Source: a virus | DNA length: 23,754 bases | Virus record (IMG/VR): IMGVR_UViG_3300025655_000294 | Location: 1-23,754 of that record | Reading direction: 5' to 3' (one strand) | Shown here: piece after piece, positions 3,201-23,640 of the stretch | Layout of the letters: every line of letters starts with the position of its first letter | Position numbering within the stretch: the stretch's first letter is position 1 | Notes under the pieces: model-generated | What the model was told of the DNA's origin: nothing | The model's database searches: none | What the model saw: only the letters and a program-made list of their open reading frames with translations | Translations under genes and position numbers: made by a program

Positions 3201-6200
3201 TAACGGCATTACTCCACCTTATTTAGAACTAACAGTAGAGCAAGATGAAAATAATAATTACACTGTAATTGTTAACGGACATGAAGGTAGAGGCAGAGCT
3301 AATTGGGCAAACAGTTTAAATCCTAATAAACCAATACCTGTTTTAATAAAGGTCAATCAAAAAGGAAAGAGATATAAAAATCTAACATTAGCTAAAGGCG
3401 ATAGCTATAAAGAAGTCAGAGACAGAGTATTTAGAAATCCTAAAACTATATATCAAAACGAAGCTTTAACTAAAATAGATTCTTTACCTGAAGGTCAACA
3501 AGTTGAATACAATCCTAAAGCTTATACTTCCAAAGAAGTTCCAATTGTAGGATTTATCCACGATACTGATAATAAATTTGGTCCTATCTTTAAAGATGAT
3601 TATGAGTATAATCCTTTTGCTATAGATATCCAAATGTCTCAACTTGCCCCAAGATACACCCCAGAATTTACAAAGAATATGCCAAGAGTCTACACCATGG
3701 TAAGAAATGAATTAGACAGATTAGGGTTGACTTATGTAAACTTAAGTATTGTTAACAGGTGGTTAGATGGCGCTAAAGCAAAAGGTAAATTTATATTTCA
3801 CAGTGACTTAATTACAAATGCTTTAAACTGGACTAAGCCTCAATTAATATCAATATTAAATAGTCCTAAAGGTGAGTATGGTGGAGTTGTTACTACAGCG
3901 GATTCACAACTAATGACTTTAAGACATGAAGCGATGCATGCTATGTTTAGTAGTGGATTCTTCACAGACCAAGAAATGAAAATATTAAAAGATTATTCTA
4001 GAAGAGTTTGGATAGATAAATATAATATACGAAATGTTTATTCAGGCAAGCCAGATGCGTCAGAAGAATTATACATTGAAGAAGGTGTAGCATTTGCTTT
4101 TGCGGATTTTTTAGCTAATAAGTCTGACGTAAAAGGAGTATTAGCGCAGGCTTTTCAGAGATTAAAAGCTTATTTAATGGCTTTAGGAAACGCATTACGT
4201 GGTTTAGGATTTACCACTGCTGAAGATATATTCAATGATATAGATGCAGGTATGTTTAAACAAAGAGTAGAAGAATATAAAAGACTCGAACGAAATAATA
4301 TTATAATGAATAACAGCATTCTCGCTAAACAATATGGCAAAGCTACGTTTGATACTCAAATTGTAAATGCTTTTGGTTCTTTATCCGATGCTCCCATCAC
4401 TCAACCAAACTATAAAAACAGTTTAGAATATATTGAAGAACCATCATCTCCAGATTTAGATGCGTATATACCAGGAACGCGCCAAACTCTACGAAAAGAA
4501 ATGCGTGAAATGTCTAACGATATTAAAGCACAAGAAAGAGAAGAAGCTCGTGGTCAGATTAGTGAAAAAGGTTTGGGAACTCTTAGTAGAGTATTCTCAC
4601 ATGCTAGAATATGGGCTAAGAAATATCCAATCTTTGAAAAATTATATACAGCTGTGAATTTTAGAGATCAAAAAACTAGAGAGTTGCAAAGTAAATTTGT
4701 AGACATTCTGGGTAAAAGTTATTTAAAAGTAATTCGCAATCCCCAAGCAACTGCTTTATTAAACAAAGCATTTGAAATATCTCAACAGGTACCAGGTAGA
4801 TATAGAGGAGATGAGAATAATAGAATAATTTTTAGAGCTGATAGAGATGGGGATGGAGCCAACAGTAAAGTTAAAGCAGGGGATATTGTTATTCTGGAAG
4901 GTGATCTAGCAGATGCATATGAAAATGCTCAAGAAGGTATTCAGTATATGCACAAAGAAATTGTTAGAGGTTTACTAGCTAATGATGCTTCTACTGAATT
5001 ATTAAATGATGCTATTGCTTTAGCTATTCAATATGAAGCTTTGAATTTAACTGATAAAACTTTTATTAATGGAACTAAAGCTATTACAGAATTAACAGAA
5101 GCTGATTTTGAAAATTTAAATTACACAGATATCAATCAAATAACTACAGCTATTGCTAACTTACAAGAAACCATACAAGACAACCCAGAATTTTTAATTA
5201 ACCGCGGTATTACAACTGAAGAAGGAAAAGTCTTGGTTAGTAAAATTGCCCAAGTGTTGGGGGCACGGGATTCGGGTGGTACCGTTGGGACTGGCATGCT
5301 TGCTTTGAGCAGTGAATTAAAAAAGTACAATGATTTTACTTTAACAGATTATGTACCTCTCCAAAGATTTGGTAACTATTTTATTGTAGTAAAAGATAAA
5401 GATAATAATACAGTTGATTACAGATTATTTGAAAGAGGATATTTTGGTGGAAGATTATCCAATGAAGAAAGTGAAGTTCGCGCAGAGTTAGAAGCAAAGT
5501 ATGGAAACAACACAGACTATACAATATCAGAAACGCGCGAAGTTAGTATTCAACAATTAAGAGATAGAGTTCAAGCTGATTTTGCTAGCATAGATTCCGC
5601 CGCTAGTTTTATATCTGATACCAATAAAGAATTATATAATCAGATAAGAAAAGAAATAGAGACTGTGTTAAACAAAGGTACTGATTTAACAAAAGGACAG
5701 GTGTTGGGTTTCAGTGCTTTCATTAAACCACGTAAAAAAGAAGGGGGTATTCCAGGATATAGTACTGATTTCGCTAGAGCTATTACTCAGTATGGTTTAG
5801 CTAGCAGCAACTTCGCTGCAGGTAATAGGTTCAATCACACTATTGGCAAGGCTTGGAGAAACACACAAGATGAGAAACAAAATCCAGATAAGAATTTAAG
5901 AGAAGCCTCTAATGAGTGGTATCAATATGTGTTAGATCCTAAACAAGAACTAGCTAGTATCAGAAGATTAGGATTCTGGTATTATCTTGGTGGTAATATA
6001 TCTTCAGCATTCTTACAGTTGATGAGTATTGTACAATTTAGTGGACCAATCTTAAGCACAATCTCTGGCAAAAGACAATCCGCCGCTATTGAATTATCCA
6101 AAGCATTTAAAGACGTAATGAAGATGTTACAATTTAATGGTAGAAGATATCAAGATGTGTATATAGATTTTAATAAACTTCCAGAAGATGTACGTGAAGA

Positions 6201-7614
6201 CGCGATGGCTGATGTGTTTAACGGTACTATCAAGCAAGGTATGGCTATGCATGAAGCTGGTATGCCACAGGGTGGAGGTATTGTTGGAAGAAATGAAAGA
6301 GTAAAAAGAAACATAAGAACATTTGAGAACACAGTTATTGGTGGTGTGTTTAATACTTTTGAAACTATCGCGCGTTTGACTGCTTATATTGCTACACATA
6401 GAATGATGCAACAAACAGATGCTATGGAAAATGCTACTAAGTTTTTTAAAACAGATGCTGATTTCCAAGCTAATATGGATAGAAATAATGGAGTAGCTAC
6501 ACCTAGAATGGTAGCCCAACAAATGCTAGAGGAAACTTTTGGTGTATATGGTAAATTAAATAGACCTAAATATATGAGAGGTTGGGGTTCTGTGTTCTTC
6601 CTATTCCAGACTTACATCAGTCAGATGTATAGTTTAATGTTTAGAATGTTTAAAGACCGAGGTCCTGCAGGTAAAAAGGCGTTGGCTAAAATGATGTTAA
6701 TGATTGCACTTACTGGTGGACTATTAGGATTACCTGGTATGGATGAGGTAGCATGGTTAAGAGATTTAATAAGAAAGCAAGTAACAGGTATTGATAAAGA
6801 TACGAGAGCCGAGTTAAGAAATATGTTAGTCGAAGTATCTAATCCTAAAGTAGCAGAATTTTTTGAGAATGGTATATTCAATGCATTAGCTAATGTAGAT
6901 GTTCAAAGAAGATTATCTTTTGGTAATGTCCCAGGTTCAGCACAGATGCGTGCAATTCTAGGAATGATGGGTATAAATACGGGAGCAAGAGCTGAAGAAT
7001 TTTTAGGGGCACCAGGTGCTATCTTATTCCAAAATGCTAGAAACTTCTTTGGGGCTTATAATAGAACTGGAGACTTTCCTATTCAAGAATTTTTATATGC
7101 AGTAACTCCTACATTTATTACTAACTTAATTAAAGCAGGGGATGTCGCATTAGATGGTAGAGTCGAATCAAGATACGGAACAGTATTAACAGATGACGCA
7201 GGTTTATATGATGCGTTCCTACAAGGCATAGGTTTTACTCCAACCAAAGTATCTAAAGAACGTGAGCTATTAAGATTAGAAAAATTAAATGTTGGTAGAA
7301 ATTCTTTAATTCAAAGTAGAATGAATGTTAAAGTAACTGCCGCATACAAAAAAATATATAGTGGAATGATGCAAGAAGATTTTAATTTACAACTGGAAGG
7401 TCAAGAAGATTTAAGAGAGATACTTCAAATGTTATTTGCTCACAATTCTAAACAAGACTTGGCAGGTCAATTAAATATTGACGTACCAAGACTTGCTAGT
7501 GAAGCCCTAAAAGATTTAATAAAAGAATACAGGCTTCTAAAACAGGGATCTAAAGTCATACCTCTAAATGTTAAGAATGCAAAAGACTTAGGGGTAATGT
7601 ACGATATACCCTAG
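229..7614 (+). CDS. Giant virion-associated polyvalent protein with metallopeptidase motif
   Basis: This 2461-residue protein has the build of large phage polyvalent, probably DNA-ejection, proteins. Residues about 115-275 form a Gly/Ala-rich amphipathic region with hydrophobic stretches near 205-230. Around residues 1000-1030 the motif GHEGRGRA (H1018, E1019, R1021), followed by IPVLI, resembles the ParB-like segments of phage polyvalent proteins. Residues 1233-1237 read HEAMH, an HExxH zinc-peptidase motif, and E1284/E1285 in a following helix could be the third ligand, as in gluzincins. The C-terminal part has hydrophobic segments near 1915-1945, 2119-2140 and 2151-2170, the last ending LLGLPGMDEV as in LPD38-type domains. 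Seen: the motifs and the length. Known of the family: such proteins travel in the capsid and help DNA entry. Inferred: this role here. The start lacks a good ribosome-binding site. The stop shares CTAG with the opposing gene. Confidence 0.85.
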   Translation: MAEEIKYIPISDEKVSSLLSEASSAAAQSASLSQQLAQRPVTSEPARTPKNIAYVRLGDDADSPMVRIDADAPPEEIQELLKNPELEKKLFEQGYIYKYGVGAERYNRPDDLNDTAFMKGLKGGWTGLKTIGAGALGTVFDLLGAEDLEKATNDAIQRYQLEGQAKQYIRTDDGEIIPFSTSVEEIFNSEARTKDFLKWLSFNVGQGLVTTIPIFAASLVNPVIGVGAAYGMGVGDSRIAQLEATDFEKANAGLSLAAGIPYAAAERFFGAGMRLADLLNPAKEGAKEAFEKVLKESTAKTIAKATGKSMLGEAVAEGSQTVITETVGEIEGLADKNQSITAGLADLYTDKNFYKKIGEAAAAGAAGGGPFGIAGGVAQRININEAGKVDLKDSKEYTDQRPTDENNKDLIDKLGEDFKTKKYTVTGVGESIGLDGNPILDENENPISPTFQVTGIYDDKGKRKVILKDTTPGAARTYLHYDASILDSLNPIEDVKTDKPDTPVLQVGEIYTDNKGNRFEVLEILDPNPKLGITNKSIRFKELDNPDREVGTLKYDSWVNNVKTGSFQRTSEKPVFDKPGDYDKVNVKPATAKQKEKAKSILKSRGYTDDAIDRIDSAGNRALLLEANSEDAQNYISPEETERLGQLGYLEEMANGFTVEVPRGGKRSIYTAQKINEILNNTSINKKTGKSVGREILEDILENNVENTTTPVGKEVVGRTPAVPPLSEQEIVNQSDEKIAKQLSKIGDQLRDPKTSESKRQEILNYRNILDVASTTEMYRPAIDRRYEMESLATRIGFGGTPAAIIGYQKAIEGLRKRVGITEEDRAEQIKQFQDRIDSAEEDLRRFNIIYSSFGYPPLTREQLNSIKHNSFPKRNEIRQMYQGKPEGNLTQVREVWEATDDPKVIKIKETQRIINANKINARLNQTFLGTISNTFWNMDGGYPGNKPSANADLAVVYMMPKSFTKLALKEPDLTMARQLQRQIAYAREGTNGITPPYLELTVEQDENNNYTVIVNGHEGRGRANWANSLNPNKPIPVLIKVNQKGKRYKNLTLAKGDSYKEVRDRVFRNPKTIYQNEALTKIDSLPEGQQVEYNPKAYTSKEVPIVGFIHDTDNKFGPIFKDDYEYNPFAIDIQMSQLAPRYTPEFTKNMPRVYTMVRNELDRLGLTYVNLSIVNRWLDGAKAKGKFIFHSDLITNALNWTKPQLISILNSPKGEYGGVVTTADSQLMTLRHEAMHAMFSSGFFTDQEMKILKDYSRRVWIDKYNIRNVYSGKPDASEELYIEEGVAFAFADFLANKSDVKGVLAQAFQRLKAYLMALGNALRGLGFTTAEDIFNDIDAGMFKQRVEEYKRLERNNIIMNNSILAKQYGKATFDTQIVNAFGSLSDAPITQPNYKNSLEYIEEPSSPDLDAYIPGTRQTLRKEMREMSNDIKAQEREEARGQISEKGLGTLSRVFSHARIWAKKYPIFEKLYTAVNFRDQKTRELQSKFVDILGKSYLKVIRNPQATALLNKAFEISQQVPGRYRGDENNRIIFRADRDGDGANSKVKAGDIVILEGDLADAYENAQEGIQYMHKEIVRGLLANDASTELLNDAIALAIQYEALNLTDKTFINGTKAITELTEADFENLNYTDINQITTAIANLQETIQDNPEFLINRGITTEEGKVLVSKIAQVLGARDSGGTVGTGMLALSSELKKYNDFTLTDYVPLQRFGNYFIVVKDKDNNTVDYRLFERGYFGGRLSNEESEVRAELEAKYGNNTDYTISETREVSIQQLRDRVQADFASIDSAASFISDTNKELYNQIRKEIETVLNKGTDLTKGQVLGFSAFIKPRKKEGGIPGYSTDFARAITQYGLASSNFAAGNRFNHTIGKAWRNTQDEKQNPDKNLREASNEWYQYVLDPKQELASIRRLGFWYYLGGNISSAFLQLMSIVQFSGPILSTISGKRQSAAIELSKAFKDVMKMLQFNGRRYQDVYIDFNKLPEDVREDAMADVFNGTIKQGMAMHEAGMPQGGGIVGRNERVKRNIRTFENTVIGGVFNTFETIARLTAYIATHRMMQQTDAMENATKFFKTDADFQANMDRNNGVATPRMVAQQMLEETFGVYGKLNRPKYMRGWGSVFFLFQTYISQMYSLMFRMFKDRGPAGKKALAKMMLMIALTGGLLGLPGMDEVAWLRDLIRKQVTGIDKDTRAELRNMLVEVSNPKVAEFFENGIFNALANVDVQRRLSFGNVPGSAQMRAILGMMGINTGARAEEFLGAPGAILFQNARNFFGAYNRTGDFPIQEFLYAVTPTFITNLIKAGDVALDGRVESRYGTVLTDDAGLYDAFLQGIGFTPTKVSKERELLRLEKLNVGRNSLIQSRMNVKVTAAYKKIYSGMMQEDFNLQLEGQEDLREILQMLFAHNSKQDLAGQLNIDVPRLASEALKDLIKEYRLLKQGSKVIPLNVKNAKDLGVMYDIP

Positions 7615-8849
7615 CACATCCAAGAAACCCAATCTTTAGATTTCGCGCCAGTCGGTTCATCGACTACTACAGGTACTTGAAAAGTGACACCGTATTCTGG
7701 GTGAGTAAACCATAAAGCTTGTTGCGGTCTTTCAGATGTGAATCTATTTGAGTAGGCGTATTCATCATAACCCTTTGTAGAGCCATTAACGATACAACCT
7801 TTTAAAGATATGTATTGATGGTAGTGACCCATGATTACATAATCAATTGTTTTGTTTTGGTTGTGGTATTCCTGTTTAATCTTCTGAACACCACGTGCAA
7901 TCGGTCCAAGCATTCCCACAATTCCCGTGCCCCCTGCCACTCCGAGGCGATCACCATGGGTTAGTAAGTAATTAACACCGTATATCTTGTATACTGTATC
8001 AAAACCTGTCGGTATTTGGAACTGGATTCGCTTGTCATTTTTAAAATGTCTAGCTAGTAGGTTGTATAGCATCCAATCGTAGTTAGTTTTCGCGGCTTGC
8101 TTGTGGCGATATTGTTTATAGGTACGTGAGTGATTGCCAAATGTACAAGGTACAAATACTTTACCAAAAGTATTAGCAAATCTTTCCAACGCCCATGTAA
8201 AATTATCTAGTAAATCTAGTACATGCTCAATATTAGAGCCATCATTACTCTCAGCTAGTTCATCATGGATATCACCCGAAATCATATCACCGCCTAACGC
8301 ACAAACAATCCCAGGATATTTAGGATTAACCATATGGTTAGTGCATAGGTCTATGGTAGTATCAATAACATTCTTGAATCTTCTTAACGCAATCGTTCTA
8401 TCATATTCATTAATCCCATTGACCGCTTCTTTATAGACGACCTCGCCCCAGTGAAAGTCCGATAAGAATATCGTAGGCACACCAGGTGCCCCCTTGGCAG
8501 GCGTAGTTTTTGTCAACCACTTAGGTGGTTTGACTACATGATTCTCAGCTTTAATTAAACTGTTCTTTAATTTTTGATGGGATAGATTCTCTTTAGCGAG
8601 TACATCTACCTGTCTTTTTAGATCACGGATTTCCGCGTCGTGTGCATACTGCTGTTCAATCAGCGCCGCCTCAGCGTCGGGGGGCACGGTTGTGGGTTTA
8701 ACACCTTGCAGTTGTGCTTGTTCAATTCTCTCGATAAGAGTAGTCCGCGGGATTCCTAGTTCTCTAGAAGCCGCCGCTTTGTTTCCTTTGTTTCGGATGA
8801 CCGAATTAAGGGCATCAATAAGGATACTTTTTGCTGTAGTTTTTGCCAT
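7611..8849 (-). CDS. Fis-type HTH plus calcineurin-like metallophosphoesterase
   Basis: The protein has 412 residues when started at ATG 8849, which has AGGAGAT six bases upstream. A longer open frame to 8972 runs through the promoter and is rejected. Residues about 5-45 look like a Fis/HTH_8 helix-turn-helix (KAAASRELGIPRTTLIERI). A coiled-coil-like linker spans about 55-105. The phosphoesterase domain then shows D131-x-H133, GGD (D188), GNH (N239-H240), H298 in THGD, and GHxH (H342, H344). These are the full two-metal ligand set of the calcineurin-like superfamily, so the enzyme should be active on a phosphoester. The substrate, whether nucleic acid, nucleotide or protein, cannot be read from the sequence. 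The DNA-binding start suggests action on DNA or a regulatory role. It has its own strong promoter and lies alone between two plus-strand blocks. Confidence 0.88.
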   Translation of the reverse strand: MAKTTAKSILIDALNSVIRNKGNKAAASRELGIPRTTLIERIEQAQLQGVKPTTVPPDAEAALIEQQYAHDAEIRDLKRQVDVLAKENLSHQKLKNSLIKAENHVVKPPKWLTKTTPAKGAPGVPTIFLSDFHWGEVVYKEAVNGINEYDRTIALRRFKNVIDTTIDLCTNHMVNPKYPGIVCALGGDMISGDIHDELAESNDGSNIEHVLDLLDNFTWALERFANTFGKVFVPCTFGNHSRTYKQYRHKQAAKTNYDWMLYNLLARHFKNDKRIQFQIPTGFDTVYKIYGVNYLLTHGDRLGVAGGTGIVGMLGPIARGVQKIKQEYHNQNKTIDYVIMGHYHQYISLKGCIVNGSTKGYDEYAYSNRFTSERPQQALWFTHPEYGVTFQVPVVVDEPTGAKSKDWVSWMC

Positions 8850-11112: not shown

Positions 11113-11355
11113 ATGTTAAAATTTGTAATCCTATTTCAGTTATGTTTAGCAGGGGGAATAGACAATCCTGCGGATGTACAGTGTGTTAGGATTATAAGCG
11201 AACCCATTTACACTAACAGATTAGATTGCGAACTACAAGCCAAAGAAGTAGGCAAGTGGGTGCAAGATGAACTTGATCAAATAGGCGGAGCCTCCGTCTT
11301 ATATGCCCGTTGTGTTAATACATACACAATGGATTATCTAGAACAATTTAAGTAG
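11113..11355 (+). CDS. Secreted small Cys-containing protein
   Basis: The protein has 80 residues. Residues 1-14 (MLKFVILFQLCLAG) look like a short signal peptide, possibly with a weak lipobox (LCLAGG). The mature part has three Cys (24, 39, 67), and similar small exported proteins occur in marine phages. It follows the lysozyme by three bases. The place after holin and endolysin is where spanins sit, but it lacks a long coiled coil or Pro-rich mature region, so a spanin role is only a possibility. Its stop TAG overlaps the next start GTG. Confidence 0.7.
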   Translation: MLKFVILFQLCLAGGIDNPADVQCVRIISEPIYTNRLDCELQAKEVGKWVQDELDQIGGASVLYARCVNTYTMDYLEQFK

Positions 11356-11993
11356 TGGCATTTCTTGTAGCAAATGTTCCACCTATTGAAGTCCTTGTTA
11401 AGAAAGAGTATCTCTATGACTTTCAGAGGGGGCACGGTGAGTATGAACCAGGAATCTGGATCACCGTTAAATCTATACAAGGTCGCGCATTATATTTCGA
11501 GACCTATCTCTATGAAACGGGAGCTCTATATGATAAGCTACCTATCTCGGCTTTTGTCTGGAAAGAGACGAAGGAAGAGATGGAACTCGAAGACCTAGAG
11601 CTTTGGGATTGTTTTAGCTACCACATCTCAGTTATACAAAAGGTGAGTATAGGGTCGGGGAAATGTAAATACAAGGCTCCAAACGGGAATTTTTATTTTG
11701 GGGAGTATTTATATACTATAGATAGTTGTCATCCAGACTACAACATACCAGATATTGGGTATTCTGAGGTACCTACACAACATAAGTCCTTTAATATAAT
11801 ACAATTAGACAACGGGTATTTCGCCGCTCAGCCTAACAATCGGGTAATATTCTATGACAAGTCTTTATCCCCAAAGAAGATGAGGTTCCCAGACTATAAG
11901 GTTTCAACTATTGAATATGGTGTGGAAAATAAATCTAAGTATACAGCGGGTGATGATACTAATTTCTTTTATGAGTTCGAAGAACAAAGCTAG
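11355..11993 (+). CDS. Conserved 212-residue marine-phage protein of unknown function
   Basis: The start is GTG in a TAGTG overlap with the upstream stop, and no ribosome site is visible, so coupling is likely. The sequence has segments I recognise from a widespread hypothetical family in marine phages: KKEYLYDFQRGHGEYEPGIW, a Trp-Asp-Cys-Phe block, LYTIDSCHPD, and QHKSFNIIQLDNG with AAQPNNR. The family is mostly beta-strand-like and soluble, with no membrane segment. Its biochemical role is not known to me. It is the last gene of the plus cassette, and its stop lies in the stem of the following hairpin. Confidence 0.8.
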   Translation: MAFLVANVPPIEVLVKKEYLYDFQRGHGEYEPGIWITVKSIQGRALYFETYLYETGALYDKLPISAFVWKETKEEMELEDLELWDCFSYHISVIQKVSIGSGKCKYKAPNGNFYFGEYLYTIDSCHPDYNIPDIGYSEVPTQHKSFNIIQLDNGYFAAQPNNRVIFYDKSLSPKKMRFPDYKVSTIEYGVENKSKYTAGDDTNFFYEFEEQS

Positions 11994-15394: not shown

Positions 15395-16651
15395 TCACAA
15401 CTTGACTGGGAATACAAGACCGTCTTGTACTTTTATATACCCAGCTTCTTCCATCGCTTTAACAGTTTGTTCAGATTCACCTGGCGCGAGAGTTCTTCGA
15501 AGAAGTTCCCGCTTAAAGTGTCGAAGGTGGATGTATCCTTGCTTCGAATTTGCCATAGTTTCTTTCGACCATACTGCCATATCTTGCGCTAGTTTACCCG
15601 CCCTAGCCATACCAAAGCCTGCCAATGCACGAGGCATAGCCTCTTCTACTTCAAACATTAAGTCTTTAGTTTTCTGCCAATGGTCCCAAGTAATAATCTT
15701 ATCCTTAGAACTACTAGCTGAAATAGCTAAAGATACTTTAATAAAGTGCGATACTCTACGTTGTGTATACTCAGCTAAGTTTGCATCAGTCGGTATTGGT
15801 TCAAGTCCTGTTTCAATATCTTCGTTGATCTTATCAAATGCGCGGTCATCAAATCTCATAGGTCCATACATCTTTGCAATCTCAGACAAGTCATGTCTCA
15901 GATTAACAATGGTTGCATCTGAAACTTTGTCTTGTAATAAAGACTGAGGAATCTTTTCACCATCATAAAAGACAGGAATGATTCTAGATAATAGACCTTG
16001 TGACCTAGCATCTTCTGGTAAGTTATCAACGAACTGCTCGGGTGTAGCACATGCGATCCAATTTAAACAAGGACCTTTAATAATGTGCTCACCTGCAGTC
16101 TTGGTTTTATGTGAGTATTCTTCTTTACTATCCCACATATCGGTCAAGAACATTTGTAAGTAACGCTCATGTCTTGATAGGAATGTACCAAGTTCTGAAG
16201 TTACTAATGTTAATGACCCATCAAAAAATTCTTCACCCATTGTAGATAGTCGCATGTCAAGTCTTGATGCTTTAGACATATCCACTGCTAATTTTTCTGG
16301 AGTAATTCTATCTTGAATAAGATAGAGAGGAAACTCTTTCAAACCATACTCAACTAATCCAGAATTAAAATTCTCGTGGTCTGGTTTTGTACCAACAGGT
16401 GTTGTTAGTTTACGAAATACTTTACTAAATGGTAGAATCAAACTAACAGATTTGTTTCTCCCTGGTCCCGCTACTAACACAACAAATATATTCGCACGTA
16501 TATCGTAGTTCGCCATAGGCATCCACACTCTTCTGCCCAATGCACCAGACACAGATGACAGCGCCGCCCAAGTTCTAAACAACTTAGGTATCGGACTTTT
16601 TTCTGTAGCCTTTACGCATGCGTCTATATAGTCTTTATATATTCGCGCCAT
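15395..16651 (-). CDS. Phage helicase/primase-type P-loop ATPase (DUF3987-like)
   Basis: The protein has 418 residues. Residues 24-60 (RTWAALSSVSGALGRRVWMP, then NIFVVLVAGPG) lead into a P-loop, G62-P-G-R-N-K67-S68. A probable Walker B/acid is in VTSELGTFLS, followed by an LTDMWDS segment. This order is typical of the DUF3987 proteins of phages, relatives of primase-helicases, although the P-loop GPGRNKS is atypical, with Arg-Asn where GSG is usual. The gene lies directly downstream of the polymerase (17-base overlap, start inside the polymerase 3' end) and upstream of nrdA, so a replication role is likely. No DnaB-type helicase or TOPRIM primase is visible nearby, so this may be the replicative helicase; that is inference. 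Confidence 0.7.
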   Translation of the reverse strand: MARIYKDYIDACVKATEKSPIPKLFRTWAALSSVSGALGRRVWMPMANYDIRANIFVVLVAGPGRNKSVSLILPFSKVFRKLTTPVGTKPDHENFNSGLVEYGLKEFPLYLIQDRITPEKLAVDMSKASRLDMRLSTMGEEFFDGSLTLVTSELGTFLSRHERYLQMFLTDMWDSKEEYSHKTKTAGEHIIKGPCLNWIACATPEQFVDNLPEDARSQGLLSRIIPVFYDGEKIPQSLLQDKVSDATIVNLRHDLSEIAKMYGPMRFDDRAFDKINEDIETGLEPIPTDANLAEYTQRRVSHFIKVSLAISASSSKDKIITWDHWQKTKDLMFEVEEAMPRALAGFGMARAGKLAQDMAVWSKETMANSKQGYIHLRHFKRELLRRTLAPGESEQTVKAMEEAGYIKVQDGLVFPVKL

Positions 16652-18194
16652 CGTGCCCCCTCTCCCATGTTTTCATGTTCTTCCAAGTGTTACCCACTTC
16701 AACAGAGGAAGGTATCACCAATGTTCTCTCGCCTACTTGAATAGGATTTGTCATACACGCAACGATCTTAGGCATCAGCTCATCTATCTTTTCAGTAGGA
16801 ACCTGTCCTAAAATCGCGTCGTGTACTTGTCCTAATACTTGAACACCCTCATCACGCAACTCATTCCACACTCGATATAATCCCATGTTCAATAAATCAC
16901 CAATCGTAGATTGAGGTACGTAAGCAATAGCACCACGTAATGTTGTAGCATCATCTAGCCTACCCCAGAACTGTCTGCGTCTGCCGATAGGAGTAGTTAG
17001 TGTCCCAGTATTTAACAACTCATTTGCTATGTTGTCATGCCACTTGCGTATTCCAGGGAATGCTCCAGGCACTTCAACGTATTTAACTTTATCACCATAT
17101 ACTTTGCCATATACTAGAAGCTCATCAAAACCAGCTTTAGGATCTTGTTGGTGCCAGCGATTCACAGAATCAAGACTGACTACTCCACCATAATAAAGTA
17201 ATTGGAATCTTGTAGCATGTGCTACTTTAATTTTTAAATGTCTAGCCAAAGATGTAGCTGACAAACCATAGTTAGTACCATGACCAGCACGCTTACACAT
17301 ATCTCTAAAACTAAACTGCAAATAATAAGGATTCTCGGCTAGCTTTCTTTCTTGAACAGGATCACCACTCCACCCCATATTTTTCCAGACCATCTTAACT
17401 ACAGTGGTATGCAAGTCACCACTCTCACATGCATCAATATATCCTTGGTCACCTGTTAAGTAAGCAACCACGCGAGATTCCGCCTGCTCCAAGTCTGCAT
17501 AGAACATAGTCATTCCATCATCTGGAATAAAAATTTCGCGCAAGTCTTTGGTTATGTTTTGAAGATTAGTTCCTGTACCCCAAGGGGCTTCTGAAGATGA
17601 CCAACGCCCTGTCTCTGTGCCTGCCACATTATAAGAACAACGAATGCGATTGTCTTTATCTCTTGTAGTTTCTAGCACACCAAGTTGTTTGTCGATATCA
17701 CGTAAGGCAAGAATTGCATTGGCAAATACTTTTGCTCGTGGATAATTTTCGCGCAGTTTCTCTAGCGCCTCACGATCTGTTGAAACTTTTGACTTCCCCT
17801 TTTTATAGGACATGATCTTAGGTATACCTAAGTGTACATAAAATAAATCCTGTAATTGTTTTGGTGAAGCGTGGTTTAAATCTTTACCTGTTGCCGCTTG
17901 GGCAAATAGATTTAACATTCGCTCTAATTTCAAGCGCACTTTTTTCAAGGGGGCACGCATGTTCTTAACTTTCTCTAGGTCTACGCGCAAACCCTTCTGC
18001 ATCATAGCCATCGCAGGCTTGAGGCTATCTATTTCAAACTGATATGTTTTGGAAGTGGTATCGTCTAATTCTTTTTTGATCTTCTGCCAAATCTCTAGAG
18101 TCACCGCGCAATCTAAAGCGCAATAAGTCCAGAGGATCTGCTCAGAATCGAGTTCGATATTTTGTATATCTACGTTCTTTATTATTTTTGCCAT
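16635..18194 (-). CDS. DNA polymerase family A, polymerase part
   Basis: The protein has 519 residues; AGGAG lies nine bases before the ATG. It begins inside the 3'-5' exonuclease domain with Exo III only (Y24-x3-D28 in TYCALDCA). The polymerase domain follows: GTETGRWSSS (192-201), motif A D234-L-E-Q-A-E-S-R241, motif B from R297 and K301 to Y309-G310, and motif C H458-D459-A460. D234 and D459 are the two metal ligands. Two features stand out: the residue equal to E. coli Phe762 is H305, and the residue after the motif C Asp is Ala instead of the usual Glu. The missing Exo I and Exo II are in the separate gene at 18722-19807, so the two products probably assemble in trans. It is expected to be the replicative polymerase of the phage. 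Confidence 0.93.
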   Translation of the reverse strand: MAKIIKNVDIQNIELDSEQILWTYCALDCAVTLEIWQKIKKELDDTTSKTYQFEIDSLKPAMAMMQKGLRVDLEKVKNMRAPLKKVRLKLERMLNLFAQAATGKDLNHASPKQLQDLFYVHLGIPKIMSYKKGKSKVSTDREALEKLRENYPRAKVFANAILALRDIDKQLGVLETTRDKDNRIRCSYNVAGTETGRWSSSEAPWGTGTNLQNITKDLREIFIPDDGMTMFYADLEQAESRVVAYLTGDQGYIDACESGDLHTTVVKMVWKNMGWSGDPVQERKLAENPYYLQFSFRDMCKRAGHGTNYGLSATSLARHLKIKVAHATRFQLLYYGGVVSLDSVNRWHQQDPKAGFDELLVYGKVYGDKVKYVEVPGAFPGIRKWHDNIANELLNTGTLTTPIGRRRQFWGRLDDATTLRGAIAYVPQSTIGDLLNMGLYRVWNELRDEGVQVLGQVHDAILGQVPTEKIDELMPKIVACMTNPIQVGERTLVIPSSVEVGNTWKNMKTWERGHDGANI

Positions 18195-18211
18195 TGCTTT
18201 TGTCTCCTGTG

Positions 18212-18442
18212 TTACTCATAGTCTCTCTCAATTATCATGTCGATATAATGTTTTGCTTTTAGTAAGTCTTGCTTGCCACCCTTGTCTTGGTGTCTACAGA
18301 TATACTTGATTGCATTACCTTCTGCAAAAAGAAATTTGTTCTGGTTAACGAACTCCGATGGTTGTATCTTGAACTTCTTGTAATGATCGCCACCCACTTG
18401 AGTTGAGTATGTGGTCGTTGCTCTATTACTTGTATAACTCAT
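18212..18442 (-). CDS. DUF3310-type small protein
   Basis: The protein has 76 residues. VGGDHYKKFKIQPSEFV, then GNAIKYICRH and DLLKAKHYIDMIIE match the DUF3310 pattern common in phages, sometimes labelled nucleotide kinase without firm proof. It has no P-loop, so kinase activity is doubtful. It lies between the two halves of the DNA polymerase and overlaps the upstream small gene by 17 bases. Confidence 0.8.
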   Translation of the reverse strand: MSYTSNRATTTYSTQVGGDHYKKFKIQPSEFVNQNKFLFAEGNAIKYICRHQDKGGKQDLLKAKHYIDMIIERDYE

Positions 18443-18713
18443 CTATTCCACCTATAATATTAAATACCTCGTTGCGAACATACTGCGGATTTAAGAATGC
18501 ATACTCGCAAACAAGACTAAAATCTTCTGTCTTTCCGCGCAACCATATCTTGGCGCGCTCTTTATTTGATAGACTTTCGCGTGCCTTATTGGTCGACATA
18601 AAGTCTGATATCGCTTGGTCAATTACTGATCTCCACAATCGTACTTCACTTTCGATAGTTACTAAATCATTTGGTATATGTAACTCCGCAAAGTATGGAG
18701 CACGTTTCGCCAT
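18426..18713 (-). CDS. Small phage protein with RLWRSVI / EDFSLVCEYA motif
   Basis: The protein has 95 residues. EVRLWRSVIDQAISDFMS and WLRGKTEDFSLVCEYAFLNP match a small phage protein type I recognise, in which a helix is followed by a DFxxVCxxA block. The function is not established; some relatives lie in replication or recombination regions. It has no homing-endonuclease motif (no HNH, GIY-YIG or LAGLIDADG), which matters because it sits in the polymerase split. It starts eight bases after the stop of the exonuclease half. Confidence 0.75.
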   Translation of the reverse strand: MAKRAPYFAELHIPNDLVTIESEVRLWRSVIDQAISDFMSTNKARESLSNKERAKIWLRGKTEDFSLVCEYAFLNPQYVRNEVFNIIGGIDELYK

Positions 18714-18721
18714 TATTACAT

Positions 18722-19807
18722 CTATTCATCTCTCTTAGTACTCTTTGAAAACTTAGCCATCGTTTTCCAAGCACCCTCGTTTGTATATATCGAACCTAAA
18801 AAGCCTAAGCCTTTCTGTTGTTCGGGCTGTAATGCATGTTGGGCATGCATTGTATCATGAATAGTTCCCGCTACTTTTATATTGTGTTTATATTGTAGCC
18901 ACGACACATCATACGTTTGGTTCTGTGCGACCTTCGTAATCTTTTCATTTTCAAGGATGCGTTTTATCCAAGCCCATGCTTGTTGTTCATGGGTAACATC
19001 AGTCCAATAGTTTTGGAGTACGTTTCGTTTGTCCTTGAATGGTATAACGAGAGCGACAGTATCGCTTGGAGCGAAACCAATACAAGTAATAAAACCGCCG
19101 CCTGTTTCAATGTCGAAACTGAGTGGCTGATCTTCGTTATTCTCTCTAATATACTTTTGTTCGAAGTCCTCGAGGTCTTTGATTTCTGGTTCAATCCATA
19201 ACTCTCTTTCTTTTATTTTAATTTCTGGTGTGTTTGATTCTTCGACTGCCTTCTTGATATCTGCTAAGACAATAGGTCTGAAGTCAAAGTTTCTAATGAC
19301 GGCACTAGGACTAAACGTAGGCATAACTTTGGTCCCACCTGTGAGGTCCGATTTGAGAATGGTTCCCCTGTAAGTACCTATCTTGTCTAGTCCTGTCAGC
19401 GCCCATAACGCAAGGCTACCCATGGCAATAATGACATTAGGTTTGCACGCGTTAAGCTCGTTTTGCAACCGCTCTAACTCGCTCTCATACTCGGGCTTTA
19501 GAAAGCCGAAGCCATTCACAGGATACTTCGAGCGCCACTTATTCTCTTTACTAAACTTAGAATAGTTCTTCTTGTTCATAAAGAAATGGGCGGGGTTCTC
19601 CTGTGCTGGCTTCTGAGCGAGAGCATGCGTAAGCAAACAGTTCTCCACATTTAGTTCTAATATCTCACACATCTTGTGAAACATTTTTCCCGTACTACCA
19701 ATCATGATTTCACCAAGACGTTGCTCATCCGTAGTTGGAAAATCAAATACGAAAGCTATCTTGCAATCACCGTTAGGTTGTTGTGAAGGTACTGTCTGCT
19801 TATTCAT
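18722..19807 (-). CDS. UDG-like domain fused to 3'-5' exonuclease part of split DNA polymerase
   Basis: The protein has 361 residues. Residues about 16-190 resemble the uracil-DNA glycosylase superfamily: FDFPTTDEQRLGEIMIGSTG (21-40), NVIIAMGSLALWALTG (124-139), YRGTI and TFSPSAVIRN (164-173). The family 4 catalytic motifs are altered (GEAPG to FDFPT, HPS to SPS) and the four-Cys iron-sulfur set is missing, so glycosylase activity is doubtful. Residues about 225-345 are the DnaQ-like exonuclease: Exo I D232-I-E234, Exo II N296-x3-D300 and IHDT (H317, D318). The frame ends before Exo III, which opens the 519-residue polymerase gene 528 bases downstream. UDG-like/polymerase fusions are known in phages; here the fusion is broken in two. 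It starts one base after the stop of the SSB candidate. Confidence 0.85.
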   Translation of the reverse strand: MNKQTVPSQQPNGDCKIAFVFDFPTTDEQRLGEIMIGSTGKMFHKMCEILELNVENCLLTHALAQKPAQENPAHFFMNKKNYSKFSKENKWRSKYPVNGFGFLKPEYESELERLQNELNACKPNVIIAMGSLALWALTGLDKIGTYRGTILKSDLTGGTKVMPTFSPSAVIRNFDFRPIVLADIKKAVEESNTPEIKIKERELWIEPEIKDLEDFEQKYIRENNEDQPLSFDIETGGGFITCIGFAPSDTVALVIPFKDKRNVLQNYWTDVTHEQQAWAWIKRILENEKITKVAQNQTYDVSWLQYKHNIKVAGTIHDTMHAQHALQPEQQKGLGFLGSIYTNEGAWKTMAKFSKSTKRDE

Positions 19808-23101: not shown

Positions 23102-23212
23102 CTATCCTAAAAATGTTAGCACCACGCCCACACCAAGTAAAATAAATACTCCGTATGTCGCTACCCACATCATTGCTCCTGTTATTTTATTACACACATC
23201 TTCAAAGTCCAT
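23102..23212 (-). CDS. Tiny single-pass membrane protein
   Basis: The protein has 36 residues: a short acidic/basic lead (MDFEDVCNKITG) and then one hydrophobic helix of about 22 residues (AMMWVATYGVFILLGVGV onwards). The ATG overlaps the stop of the cyclotransferase-like gene as TAATG, and the stop TAG is followed within a few bases by the ribosome site of the next gene. Such exact packing supports translation. Probably sits in the host inner membrane; function unknown. Confidence 0.65.
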   Translation of the reverse strand: MDFEDVCNKITGAMMWVATYGVFILLGVGVVLTFLG

Positions 23213-23640
23213 TACTTTCCACTCCATTCTTTTATGTTTTTTGTTGTTGTCACTCTGTAATCAGAGAGAACTTCTTTACCTGTAATTTTCGCGGGTGTTT
23301 CTTCTACCAGAAACATTTCTGCCACATGCTCCGTGCCATCTTCTAATTCCACTAGCGTATTTACAAGTGTATATCCTGCATTGAGTTCCATATCACACAC
23401 GGCTGCGTAGACATTATCATCTTTAATATCATACAGCTCACCTTTGATTCTGTATTTACACACTTTGTTATCGTAATGTCTAAATGTTATTGGATAACTA
23501 TTCAAGAAATCTTTGATCGTGTAATTACTATCTACGGTTATTGCTTCGCCGATTCGTTTTTGTTTTGCCATTAGTCCGTTTAGTCTTTCCCCCTTTTTGA
23601 GAGTTCCGTAAACGAACACTAATCTTTTCTGCTTTCCCAT
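23212..23640 (-). CDS. Gamma-glutamylcyclotransferase-like (AIG2/GGCT) protein
   Basis: The protein has 142 residues. The N-terminal LVFVYGTLKKGERLNGLM is the conserved VYGTLxxG loop of the GGCT/AIG2 fold, and IKGELYDI with CDMELNAGY fits the GEhY and the D-x-E-x3-Y region that carries the catalytic Glu in the family. Members release 5-oxoproline from gamma-glutamyl amines, and phage members are common but uncharacterised. Here it could modify small molecules or a cross-linked protein; the substrate is unknown. GGAG lies three bases before the ATG. Its 3' end is coupled to the tiny membrane protein. Confidence 0.85.
   Translation of the reverse strand: MGKQKRLVFVYGTLKKGERLNGLMAKQKRIGEAITVDSNYTIKDFLNSYPITFRHYDNKVCKYRIKGELYDIKDDNVYAAVCDMELNAGYTLVNTLVELEDGTEHVAEMFLVEETPAKITGKEVLSDYRVTTTKNIKEWSGK

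Follow-up and report, generated by a model that had tools for sequence, protein, structure and literature searches.

The window analysed here is a stretch of 23,754 nucleotides (nt) of viral DNA, the IMG/VR record IMGVR_UViG_3300025655_000294, and our subject is its family A DNA polymerase (PolA), in which the 3'-5' exonuclease domain is divided between two genes on the minus strand. The first gene (18722-19807) encodes a 361-residue protein with a uracil-DNA glycosylase (UDG)-like domain followed by the exonuclease motifs Exo I (D232 and E234 of DIET; 19106-19114) and Exo II (N296 and D300 of QNxxYD; 18908-18922), an assignment based on the open reading frame (ORF), on profile matches and on the conservation of the catalytic residues. 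The second gene (16635-18194) encodes a 519-residue protein which opens with Exo III (Y24 and D28 of YCALD; 18111-18125) and continues into the polymerase domain (PF00476, E 7.9e-45), where motifs A, B and C are present with D234, R297/K301/Y309 and H458-D459 conserved in an alignment of relatives. All three DEDDy motifs of the exonuclease are thus present, spread over two products. Unlike the usual single-polypeptide PolA, the exonuclease and polymerase halves lie in different reading frames, with two coding genes between them, encoding a 95-residue protein (18426-18713) and a 76-residue protein (18212-18442).

A preliminary description, made from the DNA letters and their ORFs, had placed Exo I and Exo II on the 361-residue product, Exo III at the start of the 519-residue product and two small genes between the halves, and profile searches agree with it. 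Of the Pfam exonuclease profile PF01612 (DNA_pol_A_exo1), the first three quarters match the 361-residue protein (profile positions 7-129, E 3.6e-13) and the final 24 positions (150-173) match the 519-residue protein weakly (E 0.04). The PHROG DNA polymerase profile phrog_17 covers positions 475-798 on the first product and 802-1239 on the second; therefore almost nothing was lost or duplicated at the join. In a profile alignment with the Klenow fragment of Escherichia coli, DIET corresponds to D355/E357, QNxxYD to the Exo II motif and YNGLD to the Exo III tyrosine/aspartate motif. The UDG-like domain at the N terminus of the first protein (PF03167, E 1e-8) had been overlooked in the preliminary description. 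In the window and its marine group the catalytic motifs of this part (19286-19768) are altered, with FDFPT and SPSA instead of GExPG and HPS/A (SPSA for HPSA), while distant split relatives retain GEAWG and HP, which suggests that glycosylase activity may have been lost in the marine group.

Relatives were collected by pattern-based scans of IMG/VR with up to 80 loci taken per scan. At least 182 distinct viral loci and three contigs from bacterial metagenome-assembled genomes (MAGs) are split at the same point, which is far beyond chance, and a fourth, incomplete MAG contig looks split likewise. No fused member was found among the close relatives of the window retrieved in these scans, nor did any relative seen have the whole exonuclease on one of its products, one of the two findings that the preliminary description had named as incompatible with its reading. 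In the comparison of fused and split forms that it had proposed, the split is common to the clade, and the sister group carries a single UDG-exonuclease-polymerase gene, and most of the 80 loci retrieved there have it as one ORF. In a tree of the joined halves, one branch separates the split loci from all others (90 rows, LG+G4; Shimodaira-Hasegawa-like approximate likelihood ratio test, SH-aLRT, 99), and the branch persists with an SH-aLRT of 91 under a C20 mixture model (50 rows, long branches removed); therefore the tree needs only one, old, origin of the split in this clade. A separate event is recorded by locus L288 (3200-3310), which belongs to an otherwise fused clade and has been split independently at the same junction by one stop codon, GGAGGATAACCCATG, the join reading GGAGG-TAA-CCC-ATG in frame.

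The catalytic residues on both sides of the cut have been strictly maintained. D232, E234, N296 and D300 of the first product and Y24 and D28 of the second show no substitution in the alignable split loci (180-182 of 182), Y24 and D28 being conserved in 182/182 and the residues of the N-terminal half in 180-181, with alignment gaps making up the remainder. Overall identity among the split loci drops to about 35%, and the end branches of the clade are about 0.5 changes per site long. The ratio of nonsynonymous to synonymous substitution rates (Ka/Ks) is 0.04-0.16 for both halves and 0.05-0.12 for the exonuclease part, i.e., both halves are under strong purifying selection. In 17 longer records, including the complete 43.8-kb genome of Caulobacter phage Kuura (OQ067476), a cultured isolate, the split enzyme is the only PolA, and neither a PolB nor a second PF01612 exonuclease match was found in them. 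A phage that grows with no other recognised polymerase implies that the split enzyme is functional at least in synthesis, and from the conservation of exonuclease residues on both products we infer that the shared site works too.

The junction itself is variable in length. Fewer than 25 nt separate stop and start in 14 loci, where the genes abut or overlap, often by joins of the ATGA or TAATG type; in one example, GACGAATGAAGG, the ATG of the polymerase gene overlaps the TGA of the exonuclease half, and in-frame joins are TAA-ATG (L220, L136) and TAG-CGA-ATG (L236). These abutting joins and the independent stop of L288 indicate that the loop ahead of the Exo III helix tolerates a stop followed by a restart. 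According to the structure paper on DpoZ (PMC8599892), PolA enzymes are variable and mobile between exonuclease helices E and F, and in our own mapping of the helix names through the Klenow alignment the cut appears to fall in this region. In the window, the first protein ends with the tail AKFSKSTKRDE and its stop (18722-18757), K358 being kept in 168 of 182 loci; across the clade the end is typically TIKRDD/E, often encoded by AAGAGGGAYGAA. The last 18 nt of the first gene contain a Shine-Dalgarno-like motif in 111 of 182 loci, compared with 13% of control windows, and AGG accounts for 33 of 73 arginine codons in the tail versus 9% elsewhere. The idea that the conserved KR(D/E)(D/E) tail is solely a binding element was rejected on these codon data, according to which much of the tail reflects a ribosome-binding site; marine members retain the tail without a strong Shine-Dalgarno motif. 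The polymerase half begins with a short extension (MAKIIKN...; 18147-18194) with a conserved (K/R)II, predicted to form a beta strand ahead of the Exo III helix.

A structure model was obtained for the relative L236, in which only TAG-CGA lies between in-frame halves, by reading its 261-residue exonuclease region across the stop. The input comprised 46 relatives as separate halves or as natural chains with one stop, and in their alignment only the MKII stretch with which the polymerase rows begin is out of place. The mean predicted local distance difference test (pLDDT) score is 86.5, with about 94 in the Exo III helix. The first half has a disordered tail, and the start of the second half, MRIID, is modelled as a strand (residues 167-170). 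Compared with residues 324-545 of Klenow, the model gives Z 17.4 and a root-mean-square deviation of 3.5 over 204 residues across both halves, and with the exonuclease ExnV1 it gives Z 17.9. The Klenow-like fold covers model residues 2-241, with the split at about residue 164 of a chain that is covalently joined in the model. As modelled, the two pieces fit one predicted exonuclease fold.

The DNA between the two halves is a slot with 0-5 genes and 0-1358 nt, for which we counted 103 families in 76 arrangements among 185 loci. In the window the first cargo gene is the 95-residue protein (18426-18713), a family with no match in Pfam or PHROG which takes first place in 59 loci (the window's group and marine relatives; Ka/Ks about 0.09-0.18), and the second is DUF3310 (18212-18442; PF11753, E 1.1e-10). 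Throughout the marine group the 95-residue family is the leading gene, followed by DUF3310 in some members and by DUF6378 in others. The Ka/Ks of cargo genes is 0.03-0.18. Other cargo that can be named includes DUF1937/DUF4406/nucleoside deoxyribosyltransferase-like, DUF7768, KTSC, DUF3102 and HD-domain proteins. This is gene turnover at a fixed slot and not one inherited insertion. The absence of homing-endonuclease, intein and intron signs noted in the preliminary description holds for the window (no Rfam match and no Hint or intein match in Pfam). A minority of relatives do have homing endonucleases there: HNH or LAGLIDADG-like genes occupy the slot in at least ten loci, seven of them with one HNH family, plus L224, L235 and L267.

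Several named cargo families resemble nucleotide-metabolism genes (DUF3310, DUF6378, the deoxyribosyltransferase-like and HD phosphohydrolase proteins). The HD and MazG kind of cargo raised the idea of a 2-aminoadenine phage; PurZ was not noticed among the listed gene families of the window, and the idea was not tested directly. The DUF3310 protein of the window is about 63-65% identical to those at L002:5153-5392 and L001:5950-6189 (a pelagiphage and phage 023Pt_psg01), although the polymerases are dissimilar, and in 023Pt_psg01 the DUF3310 gene also sits directly upstream of PolA, which suggests that the gene may have been exchanged.

We consider it very probable that the two products are the obligate subunits of one family A polymerase and share its proofreading site, in a long-established two-gene form of the UDG-exonuclease-polymerase replicase. 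Protein 1 (UDG-like domain with Exo I and Exo II) and protein 2 (Exo III with palm, fingers and thumb) would be translated separately from one operon and would associate via the exonuclease domain, with the Exo III helix of protein 2 docking on the fold of protein 1 to complete one DEDDy 3'-5' exonuclease. The cut lies between the half with Exo II and the helix with Exo III, in a variable loop. At its simplest, the split would have begun with a stop codon or frameshift and reinitiation in this loop, leaving an abutting stop and start and a Shine-Dalgarno motif in the tail of gene 1, and small genes would have been inserted and exchanged later between stop and start. Several points weigh against this interpretation. 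The case for a complex consists of sequence comparison and a model; the model links the halves via a read-through residue and so speaks mostly for fold compatibility and not for binding. The conservation of residues would also fit an exonuclease that is used in another way, and because retrieval was pattern-based, with up to 80 loci per scan, a few fused members of the clade could have been missed. A further extension, in which the whole clade depends on this heterodimer and, the UDG-exonuclease subunit being separate, the subunit ratio, set by the cargo and by the Shine-Dalgarno motif at the end of gene 1, tunes proofreading or allows the exonuclease subunit to be exchanged, is a speculation that we regard as rather unlikely.

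The preliminary description had left two alternatives, an exonuclease site built from two polypeptides or a loss of proofreading, and the invariant residues, the purifying selection and the status of the enzyme as sole PolA in the longer records strongly favour the former. If proofreading had been lost, the 361-residue protein would be a leftover or have a new role and the 519-residue protein would be an exonuclease-minus polymerase; exonuclease-deficient phage PolA enzymes do exist, e.g., divPolA1, in which all three catalytic aspartates are replaced (PMC11348598), and the UDG part looks degenerate in the window's group. However, complete conservation of the exonuclease catalytic residues on both products over end branches of such length, together with the low Ka/Ks of the exonuclease part, makes this loss improbable. 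Rejoining of the halves by a group I or group II intron, a split intein or another splicing route is hardly credible, even though phage polymerase genes often contain introns or inteins and intein-like insertions occur in those of the relatives L202 and L347. A spliced transcript was the second finding that the preliminary description had named as incompatible with its reading, and no Rfam match pointing to an intron was obtained in the window (gathering thresholds, and E<=1 for the junction) or in 14 relatives; moreover, the intervening DNA consists of coding genes under selection that differ between relatives, the products end in a short tail and begin with a short extension without a Hint or intein Pfam match, and 14 loci offer nothing for splicing to remove. 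Occasional bypass of the stop in abutting forms, by readthrough or frameshifting, would yield some fused enzyme and make the split partly cosmetic, as the in-frame joins of L220, L136 and L236 might suggest, but it is impossible with one to five genes between the halves, as in the window, and stops and frames differ among relatives, so that we regard it as very unlikely.

Among the rival explanations, an origin by a free-standing homing endonuclease gene, which would have split the polymerase and later been replaced by other genes, is the one that we take most seriously, although we still think it doubtful. At least ten relatives have such genes in this slot, and T4-related phages show endonuclease-associated splits (PMC2988022). 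Most loci, however, are without an endonuclease (the window's slot holds DUF3310 and the 95-residue family), 14 loci have a stop/start join only, and the independent split of L288 consists of one TAA, preceded by GGAGG and followed by ATG, and needed no insertion; the endonucleases may thus be later arrivals. As the window is a metagenomic contig, an assembly or sequencing artefact was also considered, and it was ruled out, since many independent metagenomes, and also the isolate Kuura, show this arrangement.

Kuura (genes 029-026) shares the split point, the exonuclease and polymerase residues and the gene order with the window at 35-38% identity, but its slot holds two small genes that are different from and unrelated to those of the window. 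The paper on Kuura reports a DNA polymerase, and an exonuclease did not come up when its text was searched (PMC9959647). Microcystis phage Mel-JY34, Desulfofustis phage LS06-2018-MD01 and Bacteriophage sp. MW202489 resemble the window in domain order and neighbourhood and have histidine at the position of Klenow F762, but theirs is one polypeptide, in which a linker of some 20 residues takes the place of the tail, stop and start of the split clade. In the OM43 phages MEP401 and MEP402 (L003) a family A polymerase also lies on two ORFs with a small ORF between them (PMC10580990); there, however, it is the polymerase domain that is cut, with the exonuclease left whole, and one phage group is concerned. 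Replication enzymes made as two polypeptides are also represented by gp43A/gp43B of Aeromonas phages 25 and 44RR and by the split NrdA of Aeh1, for which reassembly is known: gp43A and gp43B of phage 25 co-purify with polymerase activity, a precedent for the two-subunit reading, and the split NrdA is active (PMC2988022). Unlike the window, these are a family B polymerase and a ribonucleotide reductase, associated with an endonuclease gene or an untranslated spacer. In group 2.2 jumbo phages the polymerase core of Pol III alpha is encoded as two proteins that are thought to reconstitute (PMC7824862), but this is another polymerase family and the genes are far apart. The splitting of phage replication enzymes is thus known; the position of this split and its fixation across a clade appear to be new, because our search of the open-access literature gave no description of a PolA divided at the exonuclease site throughout a clade. 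The locus would be a natural case of an enzyme cut through its own active site and maintained in that state throughout a large clade; it shows at which point a polymerase can be split and may offer a natural two-part proofreading polymerase to which the correction activity could be added or from which it could be withheld. It also reveals that a core gene contains a hot spot for cargo, which annotation has missed, the exonuclease half of Kuura being listed as a hypothetical protein.

Downstream of the polymerase half, a DUF3987 primase-like gene (15395-16651, minus strand; ORF and profile matches) overlaps the end of the polymerase gene in the same operon and in conserved order; in Mel-JY34 a DUF3987 gene likewise follows the fused polymerase gene. 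In motif B of the window (KRAGHGTNYG, 17265-17306), H305 occupies the position of Klenow F762 and is invariant in 173 of 173 alignable split loci, and histidine is also found there in most fused relatives; two surveys of viral PolA discuss phenylalanine, tyrosine and leucine at position 762 and never mention histidine (PMC6302109, PMC9069017). Behind motif B, the fingers of the marine group carry an insertion of about 35-45 residues (17019-17150, residues about 349-392 of the polymerase), which is absent from Kuura and other relatives. Other interruptions were observed among relatives: an in-frame intein-like insertion in motif B of L347 (HGCVTAG...VTGNTNY; about residues 680-968 of ORF 4887-8282), another in the polymerase domain of the L202 C-terminal half before NLQN, and a fused-clade gene in which about 240 nt that look like part of an HNH endonuclease separate UDG from exonuclease, with no Rfam intron (L346:5654-5894). 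PolA is annotated as two ORFs in Vibrio phage ABTNL-3 (L352, 3396-6530), with an ORF of 185-residue size between them, and in MW202554 (L354, 1727-4364), in both apparently cut within the polymerase domain. Elsewhere in the window, a ferredoxin-family protein (11355-11993; phrog_3704, E 1.3e-89) and a gamma-glutamyl cyclotransferase-like protein (23212-23640; phrog_2520) are candidates for auxiliary metabolic genes.

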